Shown here: positions 14,713-63,653 of the stretch, piece after piece
Layout of the letters: each line of letters opens with the position of its first letter
Position numbering within the stretch: the first letter of the stretch is position 1
Source of the DNA: Amphibalanus amphitrite
Lineage: Eukaryota; Arthropoda; Thecostraca; Balanomorpha; Balanidae
Direction of reading: 5' to 3'
Assembly (NCBI RefSeq): GCF_019059575.1
Contig: NW_024882030.1
Span: 186,001 to 250,000, forward strand
Length of the DNA stretch: 64,000 nucleotides
Made by a program: the position numbers and the translations under genes
The notes under the pieces: model-generated
What the model was told of the DNA's origin: nothing
The model's database searches: none
The model's input: only the letters and a program-made list of their open reading frames with translations

Positions 14713-15394
14713 CTTAACCCTCGCATGTGTGCGGCGTTTGCCAGCTTCTAATGTGTAGGAGGGGGTCGGTTCACGGTTGGACCCCCCCCCCTTGCCGTTT
14801 GGCCCCTGATCGAGCTAGAGCTTCGTGGAAAAAACGAGCGTGTTGCCCGTGACGAGAGGAAGCCGATGATACCCAGTTGTAAGGTCCTAGGTCATAGGTT
14901 GACCTTCCAGGTCAGGTCAATGACCCAAAGTCGGGAAAATCGGGACCTGTTAGAAAATCGTAAAGTGTGGCTGCTAAGGGGTTTTTCGGGGTGCTGATCA
15001 CGAAAACCTATCGTGTTAGTTTTGATCACAGATGATGTCTTTAAGCATTTAGACCAGGTCGGGTCAGGTCAGGTCAGGTCAACCAGCAGGCGTCGTGACG
15101 GGTATTCGTAGTACGTGTCAACCGCCTCTGACAGCTTCGTAACATGTTACGAAGTCACCAAAACCCTACTTCGTAAATGTTCAAATGGTTGCTAAATTCG
15201 AATTCAGCTCCAAAAACTAGCCTAGAAACATGTAAAACTCGAAAAAGTGAACCGAGGTCACCCGAGGTCACGAAAGGTCAATGACCTGACCTGACCTTCA
15301 GGTGACCTTGACACCCACCCTTATTTATGTAAGCAACATCAAATCACATGTTTGAACGTTTGAAACCAAGAAAAGCTTGCAAACGGGCGGTTAA

Positions 15395-15864
15395 AGGGAC
15401 CCTCCCACCTTCAAAAAAGTTTATGAATTGGCATGAAAGTGATGTCGCTCGGTTCAGAAAGAGCGAAAACGAATATCTACCAAATTTCATCGAAAAATAT
15501 TCACCGGTTTTCAAGATATTAGACTTTTACTTTTGTTTACTTTTTGGGATCTCCGCTGTTCCTAGCGACTTTATTTAAAAGTGCGGCATTTGTTGCGCGC
15601 AACGCAGCATATACCACCGCCCGTGCTACAAAACGTTTTAGTCAAACATTTAAAAATCGTTAAATATCTGCGCTGACGCCACACATTCAGAGGGGTATTC
15701 CTATGCATTAGCCCCTCTGAATCAAAATGCTGCAATTTTGAAATTCAATATTTCCGATTTAAGGCATTTCTCGATGTTGTGAGTGCCGAAACCGGTAATT
15801 GTGAGCCAGGGACCCCATTTTGGCTATCTCAACTCAAATCTAATGTTAAGGTGGGAGGGTCCCT
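15395..15864. mobile_element. TTAA element, TIR AGGGACCCTCCCACCTT (copy 2)
   Basis: Inverted ends AGGGACCCTCCCACCTT and AAGGTGGGAGGGTCCCT. TTAA is present on the left (15391-15394) but the right TTAA is missing; comparison with the undisturbed copy near 20090 shows a few bases were lost at the junction. Related to 292-1770. Confidence 0.8.
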
Positions 15865-15924
15865 GCGAGCCGACATACGCAAAATCGCGATTCCGGCCAA
15901 ACATGGTCTCGGAAAAGAGGTCAC

Positions 15925-15937
15925 AGGTCAAAGGTCA
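15925..15937 (+). promoter_or_regulatory. perfect DR1 motif AGGTCA-A-AGGTCA
   Basis: Two consensus nuclear-receptor half-sites, direct, spaced by one A. DR1 is the consensus for RXR/USP and HNF4-type receptors. It is the same internal position of the DR1-family element in each copy. Function is not shown. Confidence 0.5.
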
Positions 15938-16565
15938 TTTGGGTCAGGGTCATGAAATTTTCAGGAGTAGGTGTAAAATTGATCAATGCGAGAGTACTGA
16001 AAGTTTCGTCGCGATCTGCCGCTTTTTACGCGAGTTATTCGCGAAAAACCATGAGGAATTTTCATGCCAGGGTTTAAGTTATAATCTATCCGTTCCTGAC
16101 ATAAGGTCTGCTGTAAGGTAACCAGGGGTCAGCAAGCATAGGCGTAGGAACGTTTTCGAAAGTGGGGGGGGGGGGGCCAGGCTCCCAGAGGTCTAAAACC
16201 TAACCTACCTCCAAAATCCAATTTCTCCTCGGATTTCGGCCACTTTGTTTTCGCAAACATGCGCAGAGGTAAAAAAAAATAGAGACAAAAAAACAAAACA
16301 AAATAGGTTAAAATTTCAGGAAGACTCCCGTCCAGAAACTCAAACTGATGGACGCATTCCCCTGTCCTCCGCAGCCGTTGGCACCCATGCAATTCCAGAG
16401 GCATCCAGCGACTTTTTCATTACGAGCGAGCTTGAAACGTGCAAAGCGAGTCTTTTCAATACCTATACCTATAAAAAACAGCATGAACGGCCCAGCTAGG
16501 CTCAGTCAGGCCTGTAACGTTTTTAAGAGGTTTTATTTCAGCGACCACTACAACTGGGCTGATTG

Positions 16566-18700
16566 ACTATCAGAGGCCGGTGTGGGACTTTTGGAGGCCG
16601 GTCTGGGCCCTCAGAGGCCAGTTTAACCCTCGCCGGACCTATAGGTTTTCTACATACGATCCGGCCGGGGGGGGGGCGGTTACGACCCCTCGCCTTTTCG
16701 CCCCAGGTGGAGCTAGCGCGTCGCGGAAAAAAAAACGAGCGTGTGCGCCATTACGAGACGCAGCGATCGATACCTGATTTTAAGGTCCTAGATCAATCGG
16801 TGACCTTTGGGTCAGGTCAAGTGCCCAAAGGTATGGTTCCTTTTTTGGTGAATAACTTCGCAAAAAAACGGCCGCAGAGCCGCGATTTTGCCATCATCGT
16901 GTTCGCCTCTCCCAGGCGCGTCGGATGATATTATTTTTGTTTGGGTGAGGTAAACTTAGGGTGTTGACCTCGGGTCACGGTCAGGTCAGCGCCCCCAGGT
17001 CACGAAATTGGTAGAAGGAGGTCATGTCGCATACCATTCGATTTTTCGGGTCTTCCTGAGTCCATTGGTGGCTATCCCGACTCGCTAGCTCAATTTGATC
17101 GGGAGTTATTGACGAAAAACTAATATGACCCTTATAACGACATAAATGACGTCGCGCAAGGTCAACATTGCAAAAGTGACGCATCGAATCTTGCAAGGAG
17201 TGCATGAAATCACGATTCGGTGTGCTTGAGATAGTTGGAGATCGTTCCCGGCACCAAAAAAAGGGTTTTCATTTTATCCCCATTGACTTATGCCTAATGG
17301 TGAGGTCACGAAAATGACCCGACCTCATATGACCTTTAGGAAAATCCGAGATGTACAAGTTGTGACACTCCTAATGGATACTAGGTCCTGCAAGGTTCAT
17401 TTCCCTGTGAAGCTCCTCTAGCAGTGAGGGCGTTGCGAAGTTGCGACATCTGAAGACCGTGCAGAGGTTCACTTATGACCTCATAGGTCTGACATATGAG
17501 GTCATAACCTGATCTGACCCGAAAATGCGGTTGGTGTCAAAAGACCCGGCTTGATTGAAAGGTCAGGTATGTCAAGCTTCAGCTCTCTATCGCCGGCGTG
17601 TTCGGAGCTATCGCGAAAAATAGACCTATGGAGGGGCGGCACCCGCCCCCCCCCCCCCCTCGGCCGGCGAGGGTTAAGGCCCTCAGAGACCAGTGCAGGA
17701 CCTGCAAAGGGCAATTTGAGACCTTTAGATGCCGACTGACTCGGGCCATCAGAGGCTAATGTGGGTCCTTACAGGGCAGCATGGGCCCTTAGAGGTCAGT
17801 GTGGGGCCGTAACAGACCGGCATGGGCCGGCGTTGGACCCCAGAGGCCAGCAGAGGGCCCTTTAAGGCCAATATGAACCCTCAGAGGCCGATGCAGACCC
17901 TTAGAGGCCGGTATCGGGTCTTCAGTATGAAGTGGGGGGGGGGCTCAGAGGCTAGGGTTCTTACAGGCCAGCATGGGCCCTTAGAGATAAGTGTGGGACC
18001 CTAAGAGACCAGCGGAGGGCCCTCATAGGCGAAGGTGGGCCCTCAGAGGCCGATGCAGACCCTTAGAGACCGGCATCAGATCTTCAGAATCCAGTGCGGG
18101 GCCCTCAGAGGCTAATGTCGGTCCTTACAGGCCAGCATGGGCCCTCAGAGGTCAGTGTGGGACCCTAAAATACCGGCATGGGCCGATGTTGGACCCCAGA
18201 GACCAGCAGAAAGCCCTCAAAAACCAATATGGGCCTCATACCCCGGCATCAGGTCTTTAGAATCCCGTGCAAGGCCCTCAGAGGCTAATGTGGGTCCTTA
18301 CAGGGCAGCATGGGCTCTTAGAGGTCAGTGTGGAGCCCTAAAAGACCGGCATGGGCCGGCGTTGGACCCCTAAGGCCAGGATGGATCCTCAGAGGCCGAT
18401 GCGGACCCTTAGAGGCCGGCATCGGGTCTTCAGAATTCAGTGCGGGGCCTCAGAGGCACCTAAAGGTTATTCTTGTGACCCCAGAGACAGAAATGAGGCC
18501 ACCAGAGGCCAGAGTGAGGCCCTCAGACGCCGACTGGGCTTTTGAGACCGGTTTAGGAGCCCTCAAATGCCAGTGGAAGGCCCTCAGAGGTCAATGTGGG
18601 TTCTCAGCGGTCAATGTGGGCGCTTGACCGCCACTGAAGGGCCCTCCGAGATCAGTGTAGGACCCTCAAAGACTGGTATGGGAGCTGTTAATAGCTGGCG
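16566..18700. repeat. minisatellite, 20-bp period (CCCTCAGAGGCCAGTGTGGG)
   Basis: Degenerate tandem copies of CCCTCAGAGGCCAGTGTGGG, roughly 54 units by length, interrupted at 16627-17673 by a transposon. Shares the AGGCC..GTGG core and period with the arrays at 45710-47140 and 50320-51090. Confidence 0.85.
16627..17673. mobile_element. TTAA element, TIR CCCTCGCCGG
   Basis: Left end CCCTCGCCGGACC, right end CGGCCGGCGAGGG, flanked by TTAA at 16623-16626 and 17674-17677. The interior carries many GGTCA motifs and phrases also found inside 24533-26231. It is inserted in the minisatellite. Confidence 0.85.
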
Positions 18701-19444
18701 TGGGTTGTTTGAGTCTCGTGACAATCGAATAAGGGCCAGAGCCCCATACTCCCATGGGGGCCCATTGGTTGTTTGGGGGGTCCAAATGATATGATGGCCC
18801 CCTGATTAGCCTTTGGAGGGGGAAGGGTATGGCCCTGGCCTGATCCCCCCTGTGCGACCGCCACTGCACTGAAAGTGGAAGGGGGAGGGGCAGATACAGA
18901 CATTGCTGGCCCCCTAGCCTGTTTGAACCGAGGCAGGGGGCACGGTCACCCTGGCCCCCAACTACTACGCCTTTGACGAACTATGCCGACTCCAAGCAGA
19001 TCCGGTCAAGCGCTGGTCGTCTGTATACGCATTCTCCTGCACCGTGCTAGTATTGTCTTATACCTTTTCACTTTTCAGTGCTCGCTGTCCCGCGCCTCGT
19101 ATTCAACAAAATGTTGCCATCAGGACTCACAGGTTTGTCTCTGATATGGGTTTTTTCATTGAGTGAAGGAAATTGGGGTCAATAACTCTGTAGAACAAAA
19201 GGGAATCTTCATTAAAGGGCAAGCTGAATAGTCGTCAAGTTCTGGTGTTTAGGGTACCGAGTGGTAGGTACAGACAGACAGTAAAGTCAGCAAAAAGTGG
19301 GGGGGCCAGTTAACATTGCTGCCCCCCCCCCACCTCCGAAAGTGGGGGGACATGGCCCCCCGGCCCCCCTGTTCCTACGCCTATGTCAGCAAGAGACATT
19401 ATAGCTATTCAACGCTATTTTCTAACACCCTGACAATAACTTAA

Positions 19445-20321
19445 CCCTCGCCCGTATTGGTGTTTTTCCAGCCGCGAACGTATAAGGGGGGGGGGGGTCC
19501 GTTGGACCCCCCCTTGCCGTTTCGCCCCTGATCGAGCTAGAGCTTCGCGGAAAAAACGAGCGTGTTGCTCGTGACGAGAGGAAGCTGCTGATACCCAATT
19601 TTAAGGTCCTAGGTCATTGGTTGACCTTGCAGGTCAGGTCAATGACCCAAAAGTCGGGAAAATCGGGACCTGTTAGAACGTCGTAAAGTGTGGCTGATAT
19701 GGGGTTTTTCGGGGTGCTGATCACGAATATCATGTTAGTTTTGATCACAGATGATGTCTTCATGCATTTAGGCCGGGTCGGGTCAGGTCAGGTCAGGTCA
19801 ACCAGTAAGGGTATTCGTAGTAGGTGGCAACCGCCTCTGACAGCTTCGTAACATGTTACGAAGGCACCAAGACTACTTCGTAAATGTTCATATGGTTGCT
19901 AAATTCGAATTCAGCTCCAAAAACTGGCCTAAAACATGTAAAACTCGAAAAAGTGAACCGAGGTCATCAAAGGTCAATGACCTGACCTGACCTTCAGGTG
20001 ACCTTGACACCCACCCTAATGCATGGGGGCAGCATCATATCACATGTTTGAACGCTTGAAACTACGAAAAGACTGCAAACGCGCGGCTAATGCGAGCCGA
20101 CATACGCCGAATCGCGATTCCGGCCAAACATGGTCTCGAAAAGTAGGTCACAGGTCAAAGGTCATTTGGGTCAGGGTCATGAAATTTTCAGGGTAGGTGT
20201 AAAATTGATGAACGCGAGGGTACTGAAAGTTTCGCCGCGATCGACCGCTTTTTACGCGAGTTATTCGCGAAAAACCATGGGGGGGTCCGTTCGACCCCCC
20301 CCCCCCCTATACGGGCGAGGG
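19445..20321. mobile_element. TTAA element, DR1 family copy 2
   Basis: Ends CCCTCGCCCGTAT and ATACGGGCGAGGG, flanked by TTAA at 19441-19444 and 20322-20325. Unit B shows the empty TTAA at 45357-45360. Perfect DR1 AGGTCA-A-AGGTCA at 20152-20164. A run of GGTCA with period 5 is near 19774-19800. Confidence 0.9.
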
Positions 20322-20325
20322 TTAA

Positions 20326-21419
20326 ACGATTCTATAAAACGTAATAAATAAGAAAAAAGTCACATAGGAATAACACCCCGACAATAACTATAACGATTCT
20401 ATAAAACGTAATAAGATAAAAGTCACAGGAAATACGTGGTCAAATCTGACCTGACCGGTATATAGGGCCGTGACCAGACCAAACTCCTCAGACAAGCTCC
20501 TCATCCTGGTAGCTGAGACGTCTCCATGGCAACCGCCAGCCAGTCGCGCCCAACGGTAGAAAGGGACTTCCCCTCTCCCACGCGCAGCGGGGCGAACCGC
20601 GCCAGGGGGACTTCCCCGTTCAGGAAAACTGAAGCCGAGTGTCCGTTGTTTTTTTAGATAAGTACGCTCCTTACCATGTTTTTACATGTCCTGATTATTG
20701 AAAGAGTTGTAAACGTCACGATAATCCATCCAGGCCCTGGTCTCAACTCTCAGGCCTCCATATCAGCTTCACCTAGCCCGGCCAAAACTAGCCCTGCCTG
20801 ACTAATATTTACCTAACCCAACCACTCACTTCACTCTGCACCCAAGGCCCTATATTGATATACCTACCCCTGCACCTGTCTCACACTGAATAGCTACCAC
20901 TGGCAGAAAGCTATCCTGCAGATTACGTCAGACTGATGGGGATGTGTCACGTGATCTCACTCCAGCGGATTACCTCAATGTTGGGTGCGCTGATAAACAT
21001 CGTTATTTAGATTTAGGGCATGGAACAGAACAGAACCTATGCTTGTTCAACTGTTGTGAGCTTGCAGCATTCGGCCATACCTTCAACACGTTACCGTGCC
21101 GCTGAGGACTAGCCCCTGAAAAATACCCACAGGCCACACAAAGACCACACTGTTTAGCCAGCCCCCCCCCCCCCTCATTTCCACAGAGATGTGTGACCGT
21201 CTGTGTCACCCCTCCCCTGACCTCACCTCGTCTCCTCTGTCCGTACTGTCGTCTTAGCCGTCCGTATTTCTCCGTCTCCACTTTCCGTACCCCCACCTAC
21301 TACGCCACACTCCCAGCAGCCACTGGCAGTCCCAAGGCCGACGCTCGACATCAGCCGCCTCTGGTTCCGACAATCGCCGATAGGTGGCAGCAGGTCCTGT
21401 GCTCAGTTCGCCGTATGTG
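20326..21419. other. duplication backbone, no gene recognised
   Basis: Paralogous to 45361-45668 and 47474-48180 in unit B, where the hAT-like element 45669-47465 interrupts it; the matching empty position is near 20652-20660. No exon-like frame is shared by the two copies as far as I can see. Confidence 0.5.
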
Positions 21420-21427
21420 GTTCCGAC

Positions 21428-21704: not shown

Positions 21705-21712
21705 GTTCCGAC

Positions 21713-22129
21713 AACCGCCGATAGATGACAGCAGGTTTCCAATTCCAACAGTCTGTAAGTCTGTGTCGTTGAATTTTAGGCCTTTAACTTTTGATTTTTA
21801 CCTTTTAAATTTTACCAGTCGTGCGATTCGCTCCCCAAAATTCAAAGAATATTTAAAGATACATCCACAATGCTGTGGCTCTTCCACACCCGAGTGACCT
21901 TACGACTCGGGTGTGTTTTACGTCAGTGGAGGTAAAACCAGGATAGGTAGGTATAGGGCAAAACAACGGTGAGGCTAACACAGATAAACACAAACACAGT
22001 ACCATTCATTCACTCCTTGCATTCACTTATCAGCCATCAGTCCCAGTACCACAACAGTACCACGTGTACAGCGGCAACTGCTTAAGATGGCGTTTTAACT
22101 TTTGAAGGCACATCCGGTGAGGCATTTAA
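21713..22129. other. junction between duplication units A and B
   Basis: Unit A homology to unit B ends in about 21740-22040. Unit B starts around 22060, where the sequence matches position 42 onward. I see no transposon end or repeat at the junction that explains the duplication. Confidence 0.55.
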
Positions 22130-23119
22130 CCCTATTCCTGGCGGGGGGGGGGCCTCAGGAGCCCCCCCCCCCCCTGAGGTTTTTTGGTTATTTCTCCCAA
22201 ACGCGTTGAGCTAGGAAGCTCAAATTTTCTGACTTTTCCTAAAAGGCTTCTACGCAACATGTCTGAAAATTTTGAGTTGATCTGACCTCAGGTCAGGTCA
22301 CCAGAGGCGGTTTGGTGACCCTACCTCAGAAAAGTTTGCAATCACGCCAGAGCTAGAGTTTTTGACCGATCAATTTCTTCTCTTCAGGGTTTAGTTAGGA
22401 TACCAGTATGTGCAATTTGTATATCTCGGAATTTTGATATCGGTGACCTAAGGTCAGGTCAATTTCGCGACCTCCCCATTATAAGTCAATGGGGGAAAAA
22501 TCAACTCCCTGTTTTTACCACTAAAACGGGTCGGAATGGCCCCATATACCATACATGACTTCATATACGATCAACCTTCACTACCTTGAGGTCTGTTTTG
22601 CTGTTGGGCAGCTGTGAGGTCATGTGACGTCATCAAAGGTCACCAAAGGTTTTTGGCCAATAACTCCGTACAGGAACAAGATACAGACGCGTGGATGGTC
22701 TCATTGTGTTCAGCTCGTCAAGACGCATCGAATGATATACATGATGACCTCGAGGTCACGTGACCTGAGGTCAACCTTTGACCTTGACCTTTCGAGGTCA
22801 ACATATATATCATTCGATGCGGATCGACGAGAGGATCACGATGATGCCCTTAGTTTGTTCCTATCTTGACTAATTCGAAAGTTATTCGAGAAAAACTCTC
22901 TCCATATCTAGCGCCGCCATTTTGACTTTTTCGACCCCTGTGACGTCATCTTTGACCTGACCTGAAAATGACCTCAGTAAAAATTGTAGATCTTGGCCGT
23001 GCGTATCCAATGCCGTTTACCGCTTGTCGCTATCTTGCTTCGTTCTCGAGATCTCAGGGGGGCCGAATCGGCCCCCCCCCGCCAGTTTCTTGTCCCGGCG
23101 GAGCCCGCCAGGAATAGGG
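22130..23119 (+). mobile_element. TTAA-flanked element, TIR CCCTATTCCTGGCGGG (copy 2)
   Basis: Same ends as 577-1563, flanked by TTAA at 22126-22129 and 23120-23123. Unit A has the uninterrupted site at 102-105. It differs from copy 1 at only a few positions by eye. Confidence 0.92.
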
Positions 23120-23123
23120 TTAA

Positions 23124-24532
23124 GCTCGCTCGGGAGCCGGTTAAACATTGCACTGCAGTGTGATAGCCACCTGGTGCCGGAGGATGTCTCTCTGCTCTCT
23201 GGCAGTGGCAATGCAGCTGGCCGATCTGGCGAGTAGGATTGTGGAGTACAGACATGCGAAAACATGACTGCAATGTCGGCAGGTAATTCAGTATCTAGAG
23301 CGACTTTTTAATCAAGTCTATGGTAGCTCACGAGCAGCTCAGCGCGTAACCACCCGAGTTGATGAAACACGTCAGAAATGTGATCAAAATTTGTGCCGGC
23401 CGCTCACAACACGAGCTCAGAAATTTAGCAGTTTCTGAATGTGGTGCTTTTCTGTTTTACCGCCGGACCCGCAGATGGAGATGCAGTACTCAGTAGCGAA
23501 TTGAGCAAACCACAAGCGCGTTCACAATGTAAGTAACGGTCCGGCAGGTATGACATACTTGGAATGGGACAGCGAACTCAAAAGACCGGTACATTTGCCA
23601 ACCAGCTGGCTAACATCATCCCCGAACGTCAGATGTCGGTCCATAGTGAGGCCGAGATTTTTAACTGCGCGGCTTTCAGAAATGATCGACTGTCTAAACT
23701 TAATCTGAGCTGGCTGGGTGTCCTGCAAAGCTATTTTGGTGCCATGAACGTTTTCGCTTGATTGATTTTCATGCCATAGTGTACTGAATATTTGTTACAG
23801 AGTATGATGGAGAGGTCGCAAAATTGACCTGACCTTAGGTCACCGATATCGAAATTCCGAGATAAACATTTTGTATATACTGTTACTCTCATCAATCGCT
23901 GAAAGCTTCAAGGCGATCGTTTAGTCGCTGTAGCTATGACGAGGATTGAAACTTTTTCTGAGGTGAGGTCACTTGACCTGACCTGGTGACCTGACCTTAA
24001 GAGCCCTGGGTCTGATTTTTTTTTTTACAAAATGTGCGGAAAAGATGCATGAACAGGTGTGCCAAAAACAGTGGCGCTCCGCGCCGCCGTTTTTGAGATA
24101 TCTGCGAAAAACCGCAGGGGATGTTCAAACACCCCCGGCCCGGCGCGGGTTAAACAATGCAAAATTTCAATGATCGGACCACGAACGTTTTCAGGTAAGG
24201 GTATTGATTAGAACTGAGTGATAAACGTTACGTCAATATTCACCACTTTTTAGAGGTGAGTACCTAATTGAGAAAACGACCGAATTGGACACTTCCCCCT
24301 ATGTGATAGGGCCACTGGCGACATCCAGCCTTCTAAAAGTGATAATGGTCACTGGCGATATAAAGCCTTGAGTAAAATAATAGTGGCCACTGGCGGTATG
24401 TAGCCTTCTAAAATTGATAATGGCCACTGGCGTTATGTAGCCTTCTGTAAGAAATAGTGTCCACTGGCGGTATGTAGCCTTCTAAAAGTGATAGTATCCA
24501 CTGGCGGTATCCAGCCTTCTAAAATAATAGCG
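23124..24532. other. unit B backbone with shared truncated element and minisatellite
   Basis: Matches 106-2990 of unit A without the 292-1770 insertion. It includes the truncated TTAA-type piece at 23803-24149 and the 44-bp minisatellite at 24305-24532. No gene is seen. Confidence 0.6.
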
Positions 24533-26231
24533 GGGGCATTCCACGATAGATCGTACCAGGCCCGTCACCCTCATCTCTCATATTTGAATGAAAATTGGTA
24601 CAAGGGGTAATCATAGGCTCCAAAAACACCTGCCAAAATATCAGACTTCTCAGATGAAAACTTTTTGAGTTACATTGCATAATATTTTCTAAACTTTAGA
24701 TTGTAAGGGTGAGTTTGATGAGCTATAACTAAAAAACGAGCTAAGCAAGCAACAAACGGTCAACAGCTTTGAACTAACGATGAATCAAAGATTGATACAG
24801 TATTTTTATAATTGGAAAGAAAAGCTTTACATATTGAAAAAAGTCGTAGTATTTTTTTAAATCGTCTATAATGGCCCTTGGGACCAAAATTTTTGCCATT
24901 TTTATTTTTTCAAAATAAACCTCAGGTCCTTTAAAATCGACATGCAAAAAATTAGAAAGGTGTTCTTTCTATAAGTTCCTCATTTAAATGTATACAAAAT
25001 GGGTTTCCGGGGGTTCGGTACGACCCCAGCTCGCCGTTTCGCCTCTAATGGAGCTAGAACCTTGCGGAAAAAACGAGCATGTGCGCCGTTACAAGATGCA
25101 TCGAATGATACCACATTTTAAGGTCTCGGGTTCATTGGTGACCCCTGAGGTCATTTCAAGTGACCCAAATTACGGGTCCGGTTTTTGATAGATAACTTCG
25201 CAACAAATGGTCGCAGAGCCGCGATTTTAGCATCTTTGTGTTTGCCTAGCTCCGGCGCGTCGAATGATATGCTGTTTGTTCTGGTGAGGTCAGCTTAAGT
25301 CGCTGACCTCGGGTCAGCACACTGCCGTGTATTTGGCTCCGCTCCCCGACCGGGCGGCCCAGCCGGCAGCCAGCCGCCGGGCATCACGTGACCGCCCCGA
25401 GTCCGCGGCAAAGCCAACCAGCGCGGCGCTGGACAAACAGCGCCGCCACAGAGATGGTTAACAGTCCGGTCAGGCCACGAAGCTGAGTGAATGAGATCAT
25501 ATTGCACATCATTCGATTCGCAACGTCTTCCCGAGTCCATTGGTAGCTTTCCCGTCTCTCTAGCTCAATTTGATCGATAGTTATTGACGGAAAACTCTTA
25601 TGACCCTAGTGACGTACGAATGACGTCACGCAAGGTCAACAATGCAAAAGTGAGGCAAAAATGACTTCAATTGAACTTTCAGTAACCAGTGATGTCACTA
25701 GGCAGCTTAACCACACCATTTGTAGGCTCTCTTCCGAAATCACAATACGAGACCATTACGGTGACGCAAAATAAGTACATTTATAGAAAGAACACCTTCC
25801 TAATTTTTTGCATACTACTTAAAAATGATCCAAAAATGTTTTTAAGTAAATAAAAATTCCAAAAAATTTGGTCCCAAAGGCATAAAAATGCAAATGAAAG
25901 GAAAATCGAGGCGTTATATATCGAAAATAATATAAATTTCAAAATTTTGAAAATGCATATTATTCTTTGTTTCAATGCAAGTTCAATGCCGTATAGCATT
26001 TGGCGTTTGGATTATCCGTCTTAGAGTTACAGCCCGCCAAACTTGGGGCTGCAACGCAAGATCCAAAACATGTTATACACTATAACTCAAAAACCACTCA
26101 TCTGATAAGCCTGAAATTGTTACAGGAGGATTCAGAGCCCCTGATTACCCCTTAGACCAATTATCGTTAAAATCCGAGAGATGAGGGTGTCAAATTGGAA
26201 AAAAGTGGTACGATCTATCGTGGAATGCCCC
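24533..26231. mobile_element. fold-back element, TIR GGGGCATTCCACGATAGATC, 4-bp duplication (copy 1)
   Basis: Ends GGGGCATTCCACGATAGATC and its complement are flanked by AGCG at 24529-24532 and 26232-26235. Removing it restores the minisatellite unit. Inverted similarity extends imperfectly about 190 bp inward. The core contains a TTAA-type GGTCA-rich piece without ends (about 25000-25650) and a GC-rich patch near 25320-25460. No transposase frame. Confidence 0.85.
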
Positions 26232-27326
26232 AGCGGCCACTGGCGGTATCCAGCCTTCTAAAAGAAATAACGACCACCGGTTGTATCGCACCGCTTGATA
26301 CTAGACCGTGTCCTGTAATCCACCAGTCGATGGTGAGGTGTCAGGGATCCGTACCCGTGCTGTGTCCATACAGCTGTAGTATAACTAATACACACTGTAC
26401 AGTCAACAGTTGACGGCAGAACGATGCACCGTTTCTCAGCGGTCAGTCAGCTGCCTGCAGTGGTAGGCTGTGCCGCATCGCACCGGCTGGGTGACACATT
26501 GATCACCATAGACACACTTCATGTGTGATAATCAGTACAGCCTAACGGCTCAGTCAACTGAAGTGCTGGGCTGGTGGTGAGGGTAAAAAGTATGATTCGC
26601 CCGTCCCGTGAGGGATACGTTTCCTGGAAATAACCTGATTTTTCTTTTTACTGGTAACTCTCTGGGTTTAGCTTAATTTTTACGGAACACTTATATTCGG
26701 CAGCCTGACGCTGCACACACTTTTTATGAAGGATCCGACATTAGAGCTCCACGTCACTTCAAGAAGGTGACTTCTTTACATCACAACTTCGTATGACATT
26801 ATGGAATGATATGTTCAAAGCATTGCATAAGGTCAGCAGCCTTACAATCCCTTTGACGGGTTACCGTCACTAAATGACAGCACTACATAGCAGCGCTTTG
26901 AAATCCAGTATCATTTGTGTATTAGGGGAAGTTGGGGCAATGCCGGAGTTGGGGCAAAGCCGAAATTCGAGATATTTCGAAAACAGTAAGACATGGATGC
27001 CACTTGTCAGTGATGCTCTGAAGCTTATAGTGACTACAATTATCGCATGTTTGTTACGAGTCGTCATTCGGAATACTTCGGCTGTGAGGGCGCCAAGAAC
27101 GTTTTCAAGGTACGCGTTCCTTGTACTACATGCGCTTTTGAAGCTGCATTTCTTACTCATTATGCTACCGTTTGTCTGGCCAATTCGGTCAAGTAATCTT
27201 CAGCATGTCTTTGCATAAGTGTGCTGCCTATTTTAAATTTGTACGGCACGTTGAAAAGTTATGGGCCTGCAAATGAAAGTATGGCTGGCTGGGGTAATGC
27301 CGAAAACGTGCAATTACGCACGTTAA

Positions 27327-30300
27327 CCCTCGCATGTGTAGGGGGGGTCGGATGGACCCCCCCATGGTTTTTCGCGAATAACTCGCGTAAAAAGCGGCCG
27401 ATCGCGACGAAACTTTCAGTACCCTCGCATTGATCAATTTTACACCTACCCTGAAAATTTCATGACCCTGATCCAAATGACCTTTGACCTGTGACCTCTT
27501 TTCCGAGACCATGTTTGGCCGGAATCGCGATTTCGCGTATATCGGCTCGCACTAGCCGCGTGTTTGCAAGCTTTTCGTGGTTTCAAACGTTCAAACATGT
27601 GATTTGATGTTACTCCCGTGTGTGTCAAGGTCACCTGAAGGTCAGGTCAGGTCATTGACCTTTGGTGACCTCGGGTGACCTCGGGTCACTTTTTCGAGTT
27701 TTACATGTTTCTAGGCTAGTTTTTGGAGCTGAATTCGAATTTAGCAACCATTTGAACATTAACGAAGTAGTTTTGGTGACTTCGTAACATGTTACGAAGC
27801 TGTCAGAGGCAGAATGCTTCAAGACATCATCTGTGATCAAAACTAACACGATATTCGTGATCAGCACCCCGAAAAACCCCTTAGCAGCCACACTTTACGA
27901 CTTTCTAACAGGTCCCGATTTTCCCGACTTTGGGTCATTGACCTGACCTGGAAGGTCAACCAATGACCTAGGACCTTAAAATTTGGGTATCATCGGCTTC
28001 CTCTCGTCACGGGCAACATGCTCGTTTTTTCCGCGAAGCTCTAGCTCGATCAGGGGCCAAACAGCAAGTGGGGGTCCAACCGACCCCCAGAGGTGCACAA
28101 ACCTTCCTACTTGCCTACAATGTAGGAGACAGGAAAGAGCCGAAGAGGGTAGCCGCGAGACAGATTTCAGTTTGTGTTTTCTGTACAAAAAGGACTATAA
28201 AAACAGCTAACTGGTAGCAATTGGTCGGTACAATCAGCTGTCAACGGGATTTGGTCATTACATTTCTTAACGTGTCTTCAAAAACAGTTCCTACAAATCT
28301 CCTCCATGAGACACCCACGAGACAGTTCCCATTGGATTAACATTGTGTCTCATGAGACACCGTGTAGGTAAAATGTAGGAAGAAAAACTGCGAAAGTGGT
28401 GGGCATGTTTCGAAAAACGGCGCACAAATTCTTTGGGCGCCTATCAGTTAAAACAAAACTCCTGTTCGAAAATGGGTTCTGTTAAGTTTCGTCAGCTGGT
28501 TTCCATAGCAACCGCCATTCGTGGGACAAGCTGACGTCATTTGCTAGCGCGTTGCGTGGTAACCAGCTATCGGTGTCAGTTGAATTTGAAAGATAATTGT
28601 AACAGTGAACAGCTCGCTTCAGTTGCTTGTACTGTGCTGTGGATGTGTGTCTTGTGCAGTGTAAGGAGTGTAAGCAAAGTGAAAGGACTTCACATTATAT
28701 TTTGTGATGGTGTGGTGATATAAGGTTGTGAGCTCCAAGTGGAGTTAAAGAATTGCCAAAAAAATGAAAACTCTGCATGGGCCGGAAATCTGCAGCCTGC
28801 ACTTCTAAACTCTTCATAAGAGGTTCGTGGCAGGGGGCATTTTGGGGAGCGATTATGTGGAGGAGGAGGTGCTGGTAAGTAGGTAGGTACCCAACCTAAT
28901 TGGCATGGTGAGAACTGAAACTGGGTATCCATGCTAAGAACTGAAAACTGGGTACCCATGCTAAAAATCGTGTGTCCTTATGTCACATATTCCTGTAGAT
29001 ATTAGATAAGCCAATTGATTCATTTATCTGCAGTTATATTGGAAAAAATAGTGTGGCAAGCAATTGAAGTGGCTTTCAGAAACAACTACAAAGGTGTGAA
29101 GGATGATTAACTGAATTGTGAAATTGCTTTACCTATCCTATCTGATCACTTCAACTTTTTTTAAAGTTTCCATTCATTTTGATGATAAAGGACAACATTG
29201 AAAGATGCTAGCATGCAGGTAACTACCTATCTAGCTTTAATGTAAATAGGTAATAATTTCCTTCAAAAGAATATTGGCTCTTCAATGTACTGGAGTTTTA
29301 GTAATTGAAGGCATCTCACTCCATTTTGAACATTACCTAGGTATAACTTCTCTGAGCTGCATGACAAATTTTCAATTTCCTTGTTGTAACACCAATACCA
29401 CAAACATTCATCTGGGCACAAGGCTCACAACATCAAATTATTCATGTTTTATTGACAGGTACCTATATAGCAAAAAAAGGCAACAGAGATATGTGATTTT
29501 TTCAGCATATGCTTTGTGTTCAGTTGTGTATATAATAATTTTGTGGGTGGAAAATGTGTCATGAGTTGTCTACAGGTCTGTGTAGAATTGTGAATGATAT
29601 GATTATAGAAAAAGGTAAATGGTCAGTTAAGTAGTCAACATGTTTACTCAATATCAAGATATGATGGCATGGAGTTTGCTCATGAGTTTGCTCAAAGGCC
29701 TTTCAGTTAGTGTGGGAAGCAGCAATTTGAAGCACAAGCTTATAAAACTGATTTGTAATGGGGTTTGTGAAGTTCTCCATAAATTTCACACAGAGCAATG
29801 TACCAGTACCTAATGCATTGCATTATTTTAAAATGAGGGAGACCATACTTAGTTGTCAGGTAGGCTTTGACATTGATTTCAAGATAAGACATGTAGGTGC
29901 TTTTTGCTTATAACTTGTCCTCATTCTCTGACTAAAGGAGTGGCAATACAATCTGAGTTGTTCTATTTTCCTCTTGCCTTGCCATTTTTGACATAATCCT
30001 TGCCCAGGCTATATATGTTGGCATGATGAAGGTCAATCAGATGACATATTTCAAATATCACAGTCATAATTTCAGTTGAATTTGCCTAACTTTATTTAAA
30101 CAATATAAGATTAGACATTGCACAGCTATAACAGGATATTTGAGCCACCACTGGCATAGAAATTAATAGATTACAAAACATTACTCAGCAAAACATTTAT
30201 CAGTCATTGAGAGTGGAGGAAACACATCTAGACTTGACAACAAATTCTACCATTCATGTTGGCATAAGTAATAATTCAAATGGATACTTAGTGCATTTTT

Positions 30301-31819: not shown

Positions 31820-32000
31820 TTAAAGCACGCTACGTGGACTTGACTGCTGTAGAATAGCAACGCGAATTTTTAGTCACACAAATTACACTTTCAACCGACA
31901 CAACGGCCTGTTACCTATAAGGAATTATTTACCTGGCATTTTCTTATTATATCACACAATTATAACTTCCAGTGTGCACCAAGCGTCCTCAAGCTCTTAA

Positions 32001-33172: not shown

Positions 33173-33176
33173 TTAA

Positions 33177-40784: not shown

Positions 40785-40889
40785 TTCTAAAACAGAGAAC
40801 GTACGGTATATAAGACTGAGAGAACGGTTTCACCTGAAACAGTCTAATGGCCTTAACGGCATGTGTCTATGGCTATTCTGTGAGTTTAA

Positions 40890-41917: not shown

Positions 41918-41921
41918 TTAA

Positions 41922-48290: not shown

Positions 48291-48368
48291 GGGGGAGCAT
48301 TCATTCTGGCCAGGGTTCATGATGTCCAGGGTCCGTTATGCCCAGTGTCGAAATGGCCAGTGCCTTAA

Positions 48369-55040: not shown

Positions 55041-55052
55041 TCCCTCTGCTCC

Positions 55053-56497: not shown

Positions 56498-57784
56498 CAC
56501 TGAAAAAAAAAATTTACTCACTTTTCTGAGTAATGACTGAGTTGCCATTTTGTCCAATGGTAAAACTCACTCTAAATCCGCGTACTCAGGTAAAACTCAG
56601 GGCGGAACGCAGGTAAAACTCGGGCAAAACTCATTGCAAGTGAGTAGCATGTGAGTAACAAAGTGAGTTGCCATTTTGTCCGATGGTAAAACTCAGATAA
56701 AACTCAGTAAGTACTCATGCGTAACTCATGTCCTACTCAGACAACTCAGGCCAAACTCAGGTATTAGTAAGTCATTACTCATGAAAAACTAGGAAGTAAC
56801 TCACATGTAACTCAGCTGGTACTAATGTATAACTCAGGTGGTAGTACGGCCATAACTCAGTTGGAACTCATCGGTTATTCAGTGAAAACTAGGGCTGTAC
56901 TCAGGACGTACTCACGTCGATAACTCATACGATACTCGGGTGTTACTCAGGCGCCGCCTGAAACGGCTGATCTGATTCGTTTTATATTGGCTCAAGCCAA
57001 TGTATAGGCTCGCCGCCCATGATGACAGCTGCCGCATCAGCATTATGCAATATGCATGCATGATGCTGACACAACAGCCACTACCAGGCAGCTAGTCTAT
57101 ATATTGGGATTGGCCAATATATAACGAATCATTGCCCAAAACCAGCATACATATCTGTATTATACCATGCCCGACCAACGTCTAGTCTTGCACTATTCGC
57201 CCCAGCCCTTACAAGAAATACGTGTTTGTAGAAACGGTCGCATTGCGCTGTATTTCAATTCTGACACACGCCAAACTGCGTCGGGGGGGGGGGGGATCGA
57301 CTCCACGTCAGCTCAGCTTCACTCTTTTGCCAGCTTCTCGACCTCAGTCTTCGCGGCTACAGGTGGCTGGCGCTCAGCATTGAATGGTGTGTGGAGCACA
57401 TGGATACACACAAACCACAGCGTGTTTCGCACTTTGTGCGCCGTTTGTTGACTGAGCACAAAGTGCGCCGTTGCCCACAGCAAAAGACTCCCTTCCAAAC
57501 CATGGATCCCCACAAGACTTCCGTTCGCTCCACGATGAGGCGGCACCGTTCGTTTTCTTCGGACTTGTTATGATAGGGGTGATCCAAATTTTCGTCACCC
57601 GTGTACGCCACCACTGACGCCTTCTCCGCCAAGATGCAGAGGAGGCTCAATGGGCCGTTCCCTGAAAACACAATAAAAAAGTCAGATTTTCTTTTGCCAG
57701 TAAGAGAAACGGAAGTTATAGGGCATGCAAGGTGATTGAAATATCAAAAGTTATCAAGTTACTTCAGCTCAAAATTAATGTTAA

Positions 57785-58729
57785 CCCTCGCACGACCAGG
57801 CCATTTCTCATAACACGAACGACCAGGGGGGGGGGGGGTTGTTACGACCCCCCCCCCTGGCGTTTCGAAACGGAAGGTCGTAGAGCTTAGCGGAAAAAAC
57901 CAACGGATTGCTCTCAACGAGATCTCGCGATTGGTGGTATATTTTTTGGTCCTAGGTCAACATTTGACCTACTTTTGACCGGTCAAAGGTCAAATTTTCG
58001 GAAAAATAGACTTTTTTCAACTTTCGGCGGCGATTGCGGCAAAACGGTGGGAGATATCGACTTGAAACCTTCACTATCGTGTTCCTTGATCAATTCTCTA
58101 TCGTTTGGTATGTATTTCGTTTCCCTAGCTCTAAAAATGGCGCGTTGGGAGCGCCGGAAGTCGGCAAGGTCACAGTCGGCGGCAGAAATTCGAAAAATCA
58201 AAATTTAAATTTTTGAAATCTGATTGTATTTTTGGATTTGGGAGGTCCATTTGCTCCCTATAGAAGCTAATATTGCTGCATATTCCCATTGAGGTGACAA
58301 GAATTAGCAAAATAGTGGTTCGGGCGCTTTTCAAAAATAGTACCGGACGCTGTTCCTCTTGTGACGTCATAGCTCCGTGACCTGACCTGACCCGGTCAAA
58401 TTTCTTATACCATATGATAGCCAATACTTGCCCCAACATGCATGGGAAGTTTCATCACGATCCATCAACCGATGTCCGTACCACCGGCAGGAAACCTCGG
58501 GCGTTGGCACTCAGTTTGTGAAAATCCGGCCGGAGGCTGTACCTCTTATGACGTCATAACTCCGTGACCTGACATGACCCGATCAATTTTTTTTTCGGCA
58601 AAAGATGCGCAAAGTTTGCCCCAGAGCGTATTGAAAATTTCAGCCCGCTACGACAAGCCGTTTAGCGTGCACTTCGAAAAAACCTCAGGGGGGGGGTTGA
58701 TACAACCCCCCCCCCTAGGCGTTCTAGGG
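57785..58729. mobile_element. TTAA element, copy 2 of the 945-bp pair
   Basis: Flanked by TTAA at 57781-57784 and 58730-58733. The interior is nearly identical to 33177-34121, while the terminal 50 bp differ more (CCCTCGCACG and CGTTCTAGGG). Confidence 0.85.
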
Positions 58730-58733
58730 TTAA

Positions 58734-59762
58734 ACCGCGCCGTGCTGGTGCTCTGAGTTTACCGTGATGTACTGGGGGGAGGGGGTCGTCATCACGTCCG
58801 CTCTTCTAACTCGGCTGTTGGGGTTGGGCCACGTAGCGACACGCCGTAAGCGGCTTTCGAAAAAGCATTAAAGATATTTAAGGAAATACTTGCCACTTGG
58901 GTAATTTTAAGGTCAAGTCAAGTGCCAGGTCACCAGAGGTCAGGAAAGGCCAAATTTTGCTTATTTCAATATTTTCGAAAAACTGGTGCTTAACTCGGAA
59001 CCAAAAGAGCTGCCCGCGGAAAAATGCAGTCAAAAGCCCTTTCGACTTTTTTTTTTGCTGGCGTTTGATCTCAGATTTGACCTCAGGTCAACAATTAAGC
59101 CTCCAGAGAGCAAAAACTCTAAAAAAGCCGTTTTTACCAAAATGTTTTCTGTAATACTTTCCACTCAAGAGTCACCACATTTATTTTGCCGTTAGCATAT
59201 AGTGTTCCTCTCGTCGGGACGAATGAACTATAATTAGACCTTGAAAGGCCATATTTAAAACTTGACCTTAGGTTGACCTGACCAGGTCATGTTGCATATC
59301 AGTCGATCCAAACCGTCAAGCTGAACACATATGAGGTGTTTTATTGCACTAGCAAATATATTTTATACATGCCGTAAGGTTGATACTTGAGACATGGTGA
59401 TGGGACAGTATCAAAAACGCTATACAATGAAATCCGTTCGATATTTTTTTGACATTTTACCTCAAACTGGTGTGAAATCGAGCGGTGAATTCCCTGAGCG
59501 AAAATGACAAAAATATCGAACGGTTTCCATGGCACGTTGCGAACGGTGCGATCGTCAGCGACCATTGAAATTTTTCCGATGTTAAGTCATTTGACGTGAC
59601 CTGACCTTGAACGACCTGGGTCTAAAATTTCTTCATATGCAGAAACAAATGTATGAGCAGGTGTGCCGAAAATGGTGGCGCTGCGCGCCGCCGTTCTTAG
59701 ATATTCGCGAAAAACCTGAGGGGGCGGGGTGGGGCGTAAAACGCCACCCAGCACAGCGCGGG
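58734..59762. mobile_element. TTAA element abutting the previous one, TIR CCGCGC(C)GTGCTGG
   Basis: Starts directly after the TTAA at 58730-58733, which it shares with the preceding element. Ends CCAGCACAGCGCGGG followed by TCAA. The GGTCA-rich interior resembles 5770-6771. Confidence 0.7.
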
Positions 59763-60344
59763 TCAAGGTCGGATGGTCATCTTAACAGTCGGGTTTTAGT
59801 CTCGCAAAACACTTCCATGGGCGTCCAATATTAAAATCAGCTTGAAACAATCACATAAAATGTGTTATACTTAACAGTAATGGAAATAAGTATGTCACGC
59901 CCAAACGCGTCTCGCCGCGGTATCTAATAATCTAATATGTAAGGAAGGTTGAAAATGCTCGCTGAAATCGAATAGTGTACGAAAATATGTGTGTAGGCAT
60001 TAAAAAAAAACAGTCGGAAAAAAATAATAACAGTGGAAAAATAATAAGCACAAACGAGACAAAAGAATCTTAAACGGTTCAGCGAGCGGAATTAAGACCA
60101 TGGGCTCCACCACCGGGGGGGGGGGGGAAGGGTACGGGGGACGTGTCCCCCAATATTTTACATTTTTAACATTGTGCCTATGGATGCTGCATGGAAAGAA
60201 TCGACTTCAAACAACCTTCGCCCCCCCCCCCAAAAAAAAAACATCGGGTCGTGACGGAGTTCTTGTTTAAAGAAGTAAAAAGGGTCAAATGAACGTTCTT
60301 TTAGGATAAGGACAACATTATCCCACAAACATGTTTTTTTTTAA
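59763..60344. other. AT-rich spacer, no gene seen
   Basis: Short poly-G and poly-C runs near 60115-60235 and A-rich tracts. No supported feature. Confidence 0.4.
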
Positions 60345-61249
60345 CCCTCGCATGTGTAGGGGGGGGGGTCGGATTGACCCCCTTTCCCCATGGTTTTTCG
60401 CGAATAACTCGCGTAAAAAGCGGCTGATCGCGACGAAGCTTTCAGTACCATCGCATTGATCAATTTTACACCTACCCTGAAACTTTCATGACCCTGACCC
60501 AAATGACCTTTGACCTGTGACCTCTTTTCCGAGACCATGTTTGGCCGGAATCGCGATTCGGCGTACGTCGGCTCGCATTAGCCGCGCGTTTGCAAGCTTT
60601 TCGTGGTTTCAAACGTTCAAACATGTGATTTGATGTTGCTCCCATGCATTAGGGTGGGTGTCAAGGTCACCTGAAGGTCAGGTCAGGTCATTGACCTTTG
60701 GTGACCTCGGGTGACCTCGGTTCACTTTTTCGAGTTTTACATGTTTCTAGGCTAGTTTTTGGAGCTGAATTCGAATTTAACAACCATTTGAACATTTACA
60801 AAGTAGTTTTGGTGCCTTCGTAACATGTTACGAAGCTGTCAGAGGCGGTTGACACGTACTACGAATACCCGTCACGACGCCTACTGGTTGACCTGACCTG
60901 ACCTGACCCGACCTGGTCTAAATGCTTAAAGACATCATCTCTGATCAAAACTAACACGATATTCGTGATCAGCACCCCGAAAAACCCCTTAGCAGCCACA
61001 CTTTACGACTTTCTAATAGGTCCCGATTTTCCCGACTTTGGGTCATTGACCTGACCTGGAAGGTCAACCAATGACCTAGGACCTTAAAATTGGGTATCAT
61101 CGGCTTCCTCTCGTCACGGGCAACACGCTCGTTTTTTCCGCGAAGCTCTAGCTCGATCAGGGGCCAAACGGCAAGGGGGGGGGGGTCCAACCGACCCCCC
61201 CCCCCCCCCTACACATTAGAAGCTGGAAAACGCCGCACACATGCAAGGG
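60345..61249. mobile_element. TTAA element, DR1 family copy 4
   Basis: Ends CCCTCGCATGTGT and ACACATGCAAGGG, flanked by TTAA at 60341-60344 and 61250-61253. Perfect DR1 on the minus strand at 60504-60516. GGTCA tandem near 60890-60912. Confidence 0.9.
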
Positions 61250-61955
61250 TTAAATTTAAATATAACATAACTCACCTCTTCTTTTTCGAACTATGCCGGG
61301 TAGGTATCCCTCAGTTTCTCGATCGATCTGCTCCGCCGTTCACGGTTGGCACCGACCTCCTGACGCCGGCGGGGAATGTCTGCTGGTCCATCAGTTCACC
61401 TCCCTGTTCTCCGCGGCGCATGCGATTGATAAAAGCTTCATCGACAATCACCGAGCTCTTCACAGATAACTTACCCGTCCCATCCTTCGCTGCACGCCTT
61501 CCCCGCTCCTGCATTCTCCCGCACAATTTCACAATAGCCTCAACAATTCAGCGTGAACTACGCGAGTCACCGCGCCACAACGGACTGAAGCGCGCGCCGC
61601 GGTTTTCGAACGCAACGGCTATAATACTCATCACGCGAACTCACGCATCACGCAGGAAACTCACCCTGCCGCGCATGCGCGCATCTTCAAGCCGGGGGTA
61701 CCTCACGCACAACTGCACGTGAATTCGCGAGAACTCATGCATTGCGCAGGAAACTAGATTTGCCCAAGCAAAACTCATTTCCGACTCAGTTCGAATTCAC
61801 GAAACTAAGCACTCAGAACTCACGCATAACGAAGTCACCCTGGTGATGTGAGTAAGATCAGCCAATAAGTGAGCACCACTATCGTATTCACTGAGTTTCT
61901 TCATGAGTTATTACTGAGTAATGCCTGGCCTGAGTAAATTTTTTTTTTTTCAGTG
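61250..61955. other. right part of the ACTCA element, no gene recognised
   Basis: A 210-codon plus-strand frame (61090-61722) starts inside the transposon and has no recognised domain; the Arg/Ser-rich C-terminal part reflects the ACTCACGCAT-type repeats. Confidence 0.4.
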
Positions 61956-62374
61956 AAGCGTTTTGTAAATCGTATGAACACTTAAATACGTGAATATCAT
62001 GGTCAATTCACTGAAAATCAATTGAATTGATATTCGGCCAGAGATGCCGAGGGCCAGAGATGCCCAGGAGCGGTCCCTGCCAGAGAGCAGAGGAGCCGCC
62101 CAACCGTAAGCTCCACGACCTTGACGGGAACGCTAAGCGTCCCGGCAATGGCTCTTTTCCTTTACAGTGTTATTCAACATATATGTCAAAGGACCATGAA
62201 GAACCATTCAAGCCACCGTGGCAGGTAGTAGGTGATATTGCCATGACACCTAATTACATGTTCATACCATTTTCAAATACGTTCATTGGTTCATCTTAAA
62301 ATGTATTACCCGTACGTTTTACGTGCTGATTATTGTCATGCCTCCTGTCGTCGGCTCATAGGGAGGGTGACATG
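61956..62374. other. 3' interior of LTR element with polypurine tract
   Basis: Possibly the end of an original retrotransposon body; no domain is recognised. AGGGAGGGTGA at 62360-62370 is a plausible polypurine tract just before the LTR. Confidence 0.45.
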
Positions 62375-62722
62375 TGTCGCACGGTATATTTCGCTATATG
62401 CTACCTCAACATTGATTTGTATAAGTACTGCTCGCTTTGTCCGACCAGATCAATACGAGCGTCGGACAATATAAAAACCGCAGCATCGTGGCCCAGCTCC
62501 CCCGGTATTGATTATCATCACGCCAGCCTCGCTGTACACTTTTCGTCCACCAATCGCATTGCTTCTCTTGTCGTTTGTCAGCCAATCATCGTGTTCCCCG
62601 TTTCGGCCACCGCCTAAAGAAGTGCGGACCAACGCCCAACTGTTTTGGTATATAAACTCTGTTCTGTCGCTCAATACATTCCTTCTCTATCTGGCTGACC
62701 CACGCTTGTGAGCTCTCCGACA
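62375..62722 (+). repeat. 3' LTR, 348 bp
   Basis: Reads as identical to the 5' LTR. Followed by GTAC, matching the 5' flank. Confidence 0.9.
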
Positions 62723-62755
62723 GTACCAACCGATAAGTGCATTTGGAAGCATTGA

Positions 62756-63653
62756 CCCTCGCATGTGTAGGGGGGTCGGATGAAACCCCCCCCCCATGGT
62801 TGTTCGCAAATAACTCGCGCAAAAAGCGGCCGATCGCGACGAAACTTTTAGTATGTACCCTCGAGTTGATCAGTTTTACATCTACTCTAAAAATTTCATG
62901 ACCCTGACCCAAAAGACCTTTGACCTGTCACCTGATTCTCGAGACCATGTTCGGCCGGAATGGCGATTTGGCGTATGTCAGCTCACATTATCCGCGCGTT
63001 TCCAGTCTTTTTGTGATTGTAGACGTCCAACAAACATGTGAAATGATGTCCTTCCCATGCATCACGGTGGGTGTGAAGACTGTGAAGATAACCTGAAGGT
63101 CAGGTCAGGTCATTGACCTTTGATGACCTCGGTTCACTTTTTCGAGTTTTACATGTTTCTAGGCTAGTTTTTGGAGCTGATTTCGAATTTACCATCCATT
63201 TGAACGTTAACGAAGTAGTTTTAGTGCTTTCGTGACATGCTACGACGCCGTCAGTGGTAGTTGACACCTACTATGGATAGCCGGTAGGACGCCTAATGGT
63301 TGACCTGACGTGACCTGACCCGATCTGGCCTAAATGCATGAAGAAATCATCTGTGATCAAAACAAACATCAGATATTTGTGATCAGCACCCCGAAAAACC
63401 CGATAACAGCTTCACTTTACGCAGTTCTAGCAGGTCCCGATTTTCCCGACTTTTGGAATATTGACCTGACCTGGAAGGTCAACCAATGAAGTAGGACCTT
63501 AAAATTGGGTATCATCGGCTTCCTCTCGTCACGGGCACACCCTCGTTTTTTTCGCGAAGCTCTAGCTCGATCAGGGGCCGAACGGCAGGGGGTCCGACCG
63601 ACCTCCCTCCCCCTACACATTAGAAGCTGGAAAACGCTGCACACATTCGAGGG
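62756..63653. mobile_element. DR1 family copy 5, degraded ends
   Basis: Ends CCCTCGCATGTGT and ACACATTCGAGGG; the flanks TTGA and CTTA are decayed TTAA. The DR1 at 62914-62926 has one changed base (AGACCT). More diverged than the other copies. Confidence 0.78.

Follow-up and report, generated by a model that had tools for sequence, protein, structure and literature searches.

TTAA elements rich in AGGTCA

We analyzed a 64-kb window of the Amphibalanus amphitrite genome (contig NW_024882030.1, positions 186,001 to 250,000) and found its most over-represented hexamer, the nuclear-receptor half-site AGGTCA, to occur 299 times against 34.3 expected from the dinucleotide content. Among these occurrences, 276 lie within 21 TTAA elements or parts of elements that represent ~10 families and total 19,299 bp, giving a density of 14.3/kb; outside the elements the density is 0.51/kb, approximately the chance level. 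The element list was drawn partly from the AGGTCA clusters themselves (H, K, L, and the E2 parts), and with only the elements recognized by their ends or by an empty site (A1–A5, B1, D1–D3, E1, F1, F2, G1, I1, and J1) the count is 217 of 299 in 14,846 bp. The word resists substitution and is gathered into clusters centered ~170 bp apart, a pattern suggesting that the element interiors may be built as chains of nucleosome-sized blocks.

To identify empty-site relatives, we joined the two flanks of each element and matched them against the window. This was tried for 14 elements other than A1, and relatives were found for six: D1, D2, D3, G1, A2, and I1 (Table 1). The relatives of D1, D2, A2, G1, and I1 have TTAA at the site, while those of D3 read TTGA; the relative of D1 is without 22 bp of one flank. 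Within the window, the flanks of B1 matched only tandem repeats (70–84%) and the flanks of F1 only themselves. A duplicated gene region contains G1 and I1 in one of its copies and lacks them in the other. This region (3629–10433 and 34440–40888) is gene-like and 88–92% identical over the aligned blocks, the copies differing by the insertion of G1 and I1, and one open reading frame (ORF) per copy encodes a coiled coil, with Pfam matches for one of them.

The elements have inverted tips, no ORF of at least 150 amino acids in the ORF list lies wholly inside an element, and a Pfam scan of five ORFs of the window gave no transposase match. Judged from these ends and insertion sites, the elements are best read as non-autonomous piggyBac-type TTAA transposons forming one loose clan. 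Typical miniature inverted-repeat transposable elements (MITEs) are shorter than the 0.9–1.2 kb found here. The tips are CCCT in families A, B, D, and F, CCCG in E and K, CACG in G, and CCCG/ACCG in J; the tip hallmark given for piggyBac is CC[C/T]T (PMC2872659, in part).

In the families with both ends seen, the long end consists of the tip, a word, ~20 bp, the same word again, and a G-run/C-run palindrome, and the short end of the tip, a family-specific word present once, and a G-run/C-run palindrome. The outer, inner, and short-end words match better within an element than between families (0 of 5,000 permutations as good in each of the three comparisons, nine end pairs), with the reservation that the compared windows were chosen by hand and single cases are weak, namely F1 and B for outer–inner and F2 for inner–short. 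The words can change while the interior stays: A2 is 91–92% identical to A1, A3, and A4, yet its end word is different at all three places, and F1 and F2 have an interior in common at 93–94% with different end words. In the parts of the source covered, the ends of piggyBac and piggyBat resemble the present ones in their TTAA flanks and repeated end motifs, palindromes included, and the palindromic motif of piggyBac is placed asymmetrically at the two ends (PMC11707139); unlike in those systems, the end words here are family specific and the palindromes are of the G-run/C-run type.

The preliminary description of this DNA had recognized five copies of one TTAA transposon family with shared ends. 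The five do form a single family (A), and three of them carry CCCTCGCATGTGT at both ends: A3 (27327/31819), A4 (60345/61249), and A5 (62756/63653), the last two with one mismatch at one end. The sharing does not extend to the other two copies, as A1 has the sequence at one end only (14718) and A2 at neither.

The contrast between changing ends and constant clusters bears on the possibility that the clusters are internal sites of the transposition machinery, where a transposase or its partner bends or bridges the element and the spacing reflects loop or helix geometry. Every family examined has clusters and their word is constrained, and many transposon systems are described as carrying subterminal repeat arrays assumed necessary for movement (PMC11707139, in part). 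The clusters run, however, through the middles of the elements and not near their ends. A1 and A2 have entirely different end words and F1 and F2 largely different ones, yet each pair agrees in its clusters. Should the end words be the transposase sites, clusters that stay constant while the end words vary follow a different reader, and we regard a role in the transposition machinery as unlikely.

Table 1. Elements and partial elements in the window, with strand and distinguishing features
Element	Position	Strand	Features
A1 (family A)	14714..16058	+	Right end lost; other element nested at 15391-15863; DR1 at 15925
A2 (family A interior)	19441..20328	+	End words CCCTCGCCCGTAT; DR1 at 20152; empty-site relative 45297-45401
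A3	27323..31823	-	Pieces 27323-28088 and ~31760-31823, 3.7-kb insert between; DR1 at 27478 (-)
A4	60338..61256	-	Fullest family A copy; DR1 at 60504 (-)
A5	62749..63660	-	Most diverged family A copy (85-87% to others); flanking TTAA decayed; one-mismatch DR1 at 62914 (-)
B1	16623..17680	+	GGTCA clusters, best period 174 bp
D1	570..1570	-	Ends CCCTATTCCTGGC; 18 AGGTCA; empty-site relative 15661-15518
D2	22123..23126	-	18 AGGTCA; empty-site relative 46-190
D3	48362..49365	+	18 AGGTCA; empty-site relative 53163-53006, TTGA at site
E1	31997..33176	-	Ends CCCGCGCGGGGC; three GGTCA clusters in one half, none in the other; AGGTCA all in the same orientation
F1	33173..34128	+	Interior 93-94% to F2; end words differ from F2
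F2	57781..58736	+	F1-like interior; long end CCCTCGCACGACCAGG
G1	40886..41921	+	Ends CACGCGCACTGCA; 21 AGGTCA; empty site in gene duplicate, 10352-10497
J1	58733..59766	+	Adjoins F2
I1	37880..39077	-	Right end CCTTCCAGGCGG; left TTAA decayed; empty site in gene duplicate, 8865-9027
H	42910..44800	.	1.9-kb foldback; ~650-bp arms 90% alike; center family D-like; 28 AGGTCA; TTAA ends not identified
K	5760..6778	-	One end CCCGCGCCC at 6775, second end not found; center gaps 143-197 bp
E2a (partial)	2250..2622	.	One end, CCCGCGCCGGGCC
E2b (partial)	23790..24156	.	Near-copy of E2a
B1 relative (partial)	25009..25660	+	4 AGGTCA
L (partial)	7680..8010	.	3 AGGTCA

Constraint on the half-site

Substitutions avoid the AGGTCA word. 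In an alignment of A1–A4, its columns contain 0 substitutions in 366 cells compared with 78 in 2,647 cells elsewhere, and none of 774 shifts of the word positions gives as low a count. With all five family A copies, 8 changes are found in 439 AGGTCA cells and 157 in 3,307 other cells, all 8 being in A5; circular shifts are as low in 0.5% of cases when changes are counted and in 3% when variable columns are counted or CpG is excluded. Some comparisons between more distant elements gave similar results. D1 and H, at 85% identity, keep 13 of 15 sites with 2.3% versus 16.7% of positions changed (0 of 626 shifts as low), D2 and H keep 10 of 12 sites (3 of 520 shifts), and J1 and K keep 3 of 6 with 11% versus 32% changed (0 of 394). 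D1 and G1 keep 14 of 23 sites with 11% versus 41% changed (0 of 834), although an alignment at 64% identity may favor repeated words. No AGGTCA changes at all are seen in D1–D3, F1–F2 (7 of 7 sites kept), and E2a–E2b, which are singly not significant (207 of 869, 187 of 819, and 149 of 799 shifts, respectively), and the first module of A4 and B1 is weak (2 of 4 sites kept, 10 of 142 shifts as low). Ranked by retention, AGGTCA is 9th of 144 non-CpG words overall and 2nd of 41, 2nd of 21, 7th of 95, 2nd of 32, and 1st of 16 in the subsets. Judged by these substitution patterns in the window, the RGGTCA word (R for purine) is under purifying constraint.

The word also tends to be exact. Taking one copy from each of nine families, we count 124 AGGTCA where 4.35 would be expected. 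The 18 words that differ from it by one base add up to 137 (78 expected), and approximately 42 of this near-miss excess of 59 come from ACGTCA (26 occurrences) and GGGTCA (25). The base preceding GGTCA is A in 124 cases, G in 25, C in 7, and T in 4, even though GG in the elements is most often preceded by G. Neutrally decaying arrays should give more near-misses, and their low number fits a reader of a purine followed by GGTCA. TGACGTCA or its half is found ~5–32 bp from a GGTCA word in six of the nine families (B, D, F, I, J, and K; e.g., at 33754 and 33941) and is possibly a second word; in E1 it lies far from the clusters and in A and G there is none.

These numbers bear on the question of a neutral origin, in which slippage of the pentamer expanded GGTCA in old elements without any function. 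The commonest spacing between half-sites is indeed the 5-bp step that slippage would leave. Such an origin does not sit well with the substitution deficit in AGGTCA, the few near-miss words, and the regular spacing, nor with the 34 half-sites whose 14 bp of upstream sequence contain neither a further GGTCA nor TGACC, and we consider it very improbable.

The preliminary description had proposed that the family disperses a conserved receptor motif, a direct repeat of AGGTCA with 1-bp spacing (DR1), AGGTCAAAGGTCA. The motif is present at all five places where it was reported, perfect in four copies and with one mismatch in A5 (Table 1), and with at most one mismatch the 13-mer has 12 matches in the window against 0.09 expected (0 of 100 shuffles reach 12). 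In four copies it sits in a longer triplet, AGGTCACAGGTCAAAGGTCA. The conservation holds for the half-site, which is enriched only as purine plus GGTCA, and not for the 13-mer as a unit: in the family A alignment the 13-mer has 1 variable column, and 32% of the 13-bp windows are equally or better conserved. Nor is DR1 what the elements disperse, since with one copy per family it makes up 3 pairs in 2 of 10 families. The 5-bp step (DR –1) accounts for 28 pairs in eight families, DR4 for 12, and DR5 for 11, and across the ten families DR –1, DR0, DR4, DR5, and the everted repeat with 1-bp spacing (ER1) are all commoner than DR1. The occurrence in 2 of 10 families and the unremarkable conservation of the 13-mer argue against a fixed 1-bp spacing as the conserved unit; DR1 is an incidental arrangement of half-sites and a small part of a larger AGGTCA excess.

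The elements might still spread hormone response elements of the DR1 type and thereby influence nearby genes via USP/RXR or HNF4. DR1 is intact in four of the five family A copies, and there is a precedent in human Alu repeats, a repeat family that likewise disperses nuclear-receptor half-sites: these have dispersed retinoic acid response elements of the DR2 type, and in human cells RAR is recruited to several of them (PMC1785376, in part). The Alu sites are mainly DR2 and arose largely via CpG deamination (PMC1785376, in part), whereas the present elements have many spacings, exact half-sites, and regular clusters. Given that DR1 is limited to two families, that many spacings are commoner, and that the 13-mer alone is not unusually conserved, this role seems highly unlikely. 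Classical dimer response elements are not favored in general, as DR1 is rare and the commonest step, 5 bp, leaves too little room for two receptor domains at a time.

Cluster spacing and a possible chromatin scaffold

Within the elements, the half-site clusters are regularly spaced. Among eight representatives, the distances between pairs peak at 160–180 bp (z = 5.8 compared with random placement of the same clusters) and again at 320–340 and 500–520 bp, with troughs between. The best period pooled over ten elements is 170 bp, with 0 of 400 random placements as strong, and element by element the 150–200 band gives P ≤ 0.035 in nine of ten. Gaps between cluster centers fall within 140–220 bp in 35 of 45 cases (median 164 bp). 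The number of clusters differs among the families while the spacing is similar. The layouts have imperfections: the clusters of E1 are confined to one half, J1 is one cluster short, and I1 is irregular at one end. Element lengths of ~5, 6, or 7 times 165–190 bp were considered as a further indication and set aside, as such multiples cover most lengths in the range and provide no test.

Sequences between the clusters carry a 10-bp AA/TT/TA signal. Pooled over 31 segments of nine families, the signal has z = 6.7 and without A4 (27 segments) z = 4.4, 0 of 200 shuffles being as strong in either case. In fixed tiles, the mean z is 0.77 inside the elements (123 tiles) and 0.09 outside (233 tiles; P = 5e-5), and the difference is retained when each family is represented by a single copy (69 tiles; P = 0.001). 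Among the stretches outside elements, 11761–11900 and 12360–12650 (tiles 11761 and 12461) have a strong 10-bp signal, the second being a CGGACG-rich foldback.

Common descent provides another account of the regularity: the ~170-bp layout may have been inherited from one ancestor, or from a GGTCA-bearing satellite with a 170-bp monomer, and spread by later module exchange, with selection on the word and none on the spacing. Homologous terminal modules link A, B, and F through their long ends and F, G, E, E2, and J through their short ends, and interior stretches are common to D/G/H/J/K and to E/I, with a weak one common to B/G. With GGTCA masked, A, F, and the greater part of B have interiors that cannot be aligned to the other groups beyond the end modules (E 1e-3), and a masked self-comparison of 11 elements at the same threshold revealed a direct interior repeat in F1 only, 44 bp long and spaced 187 bp, the others giving palindromes and ends. 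The F1 repeat is what a satellite origin would leave; its absence from the other ten elements and the varying number of clusters at similar spacing are not, and we find inheritance alone an improbable explanation. Apparent module boundaries at clusters could not be used, as the masking itself breaks the alignments there. Either the spacing arose repeatedly or it has outlived the surrounding sequence.

The reading that we prefer, with a probability of about 40%, is that the interiors are chains of nucleosome-sized blocks whose linkers bind a reader of RGGTCA, possibly an orphan nuclear receptor. The family-specific end words would be read by a piggyBac-like transposase whose gene lies elsewhere, while interior blocks (median 131 bp between cluster edges) alternate with RGGTCA clusters. 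A host protein of the NR2C/NR2F or HNF4/RXR type, specific for nuclear-receptor half-sites and tolerant of many spacings, would bind these clusters as linkers and set the nucleosomes in between. A one-kilobase element could thereby stay in regular, accessible chromatin, allowing its ends to be found and paired. As to the kind of reader, the orphan receptors NR2C/NR2F are reported to bind variant TCAGGG telomere repeats, i.e., tandem GGGTCA (PMC11194075, in part). That system belongs to human telomeres maintained by alternative lengthening of telomeres (ALT; PMC11194075, in part) and not to transposons, and it indicates a plausible kind of reader only.

Several observations weigh against a nucleosomal scaffold. 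All results come from one 64-kb window, and the end modules and some interiors are common to several families, which leaves the layouts only partly independent. Taken by itself, E1 shows no periodicity (P = 0.275), and the preferred period is not uniform, being ~190 bp in A/B/F (0 of 400 placements), ~166 bp in D/G/J/K/H (0 of 400), and ~166 bp in E/I (P = 0.035). The edge-to-edge gaps between clusters have a median of 131 bp and in 36 of 48 cases are shorter than the 147-bp nucleosome core, although cores could overlap the cluster edges. The 10-bp signal is uneven, with z = 6.9 in A4, 1.7–2.3 in F, G, I, J, and K, 0.6–1.1 in B, D, and E, and –0.1 in H; one of six control stretches (10.7–13.9 kb) was also positive (z 3.8–5.9), and the phase of the signal relative to the clusters was not clearly coherent for the three anchors (1.7, 2.0, and 1.1, chance being ~1). 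The constraint is weak or null in several comparisons, including A4 with A5 (11 of 16 sites kept, 8.8% versus 13.5% changed, 214 of 771 shifts as low), G1 with E2a (6 of 9, 42 of 316), the first module of A4 with F1 (2 of 5, 30 of 137), and E1 with I1 (4 of 7, 23% versus 40% changed, 83 of 629). Finally, monomer-binding receptors are expected to need a 5′ extension consensus, and the 34 isolated half-sites examined revealed none, while two receptor domains cannot sit together on a 5-bp step.

A stronger version of the proposal, which we put forward only tentatively and hold to be doubtful, is that the noncoding body is a self-phasing array of an integral number of nucleosome blocks, a host orphan nuclear receptor being recruited by the linkers between them. 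Selection would then keep the scaffold while the ends are swapped, making the scaffold the durable heritable unit. If the layout holds genome wide, the noncoding interior of a transposon would be selected for chromatin organization, and the elements would offer a direct route to asking how non-autonomous elements stay accessible. Conserved receptor half-sites lying in phased chromatin would also be scattered in large numbers through the genome, and there would be a clear case of an interior outliving the ends that the transposase recognizes, a puzzle previously noted in coral MITEs.

Related systems and neighboring features

Among the closest counterparts are the CMITEs of the coral Acropora, piggyBac-type MITEs that share with the present elements the TTAA duplication, an interior more conserved than the terminal repeats, and the occurrence of one interior with a variety of ends (PMC2872659, in part). 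CMITEs are ~100 bp long with a 75-bp interior, in contrast to the 0.9–1.2 kb and RGGTCA clusters found here, and the parts of the paper covered make no mention of hormone-receptor words or nucleosome-scale spacing (PMC2872659). Among the matches listed in a literature search, in which most subscription papers were out of reach, clusters of receptor words at nucleosome spacing in MITEs were not described. Exact searches with 29-mers gave no match in the collections of viral contigs or genome contigs. Eleven viral contigs matching a 21-base GGTCA array were dropped, as they contain 1.1–3.0 words/kb compared with 14.3 in the elements; the four of them that were mapped (L001, L002, L004, and L006) have short pentamer runs.

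Other mobile sequences are interleaved with the elements. The 3.7-kb insert in A3 (28089–31759) has the ends CAGAGGTGCAC, an apparent 8-bp duplication, CCGACCCC, and five frames of at least 75 amino acids, and we take it to be hAT-like by this hallmark. A second element with the ends AGGGACCCTCCCACC is found in two copies, one nested in A1 (15391–15863) and the other, at ~291–1780, containing the inserted D1. An ORF with an RNase H domain (55334–56053, minus strand; Pfam E 5.7e-13) is probably a retroelement remnant. Tandem repeats include a 20-bp minisatellite, CCCTGACAGGCCTGTGGTGC, in two arrays (45830–47125 and 50320–51078) and, at 52402–52548, an interstitial array of the arthropod-type telomere repeat, in which AACCT, reading TTAGG on the opposite strand, occurs 29 times, suggestive of an arthropod host.

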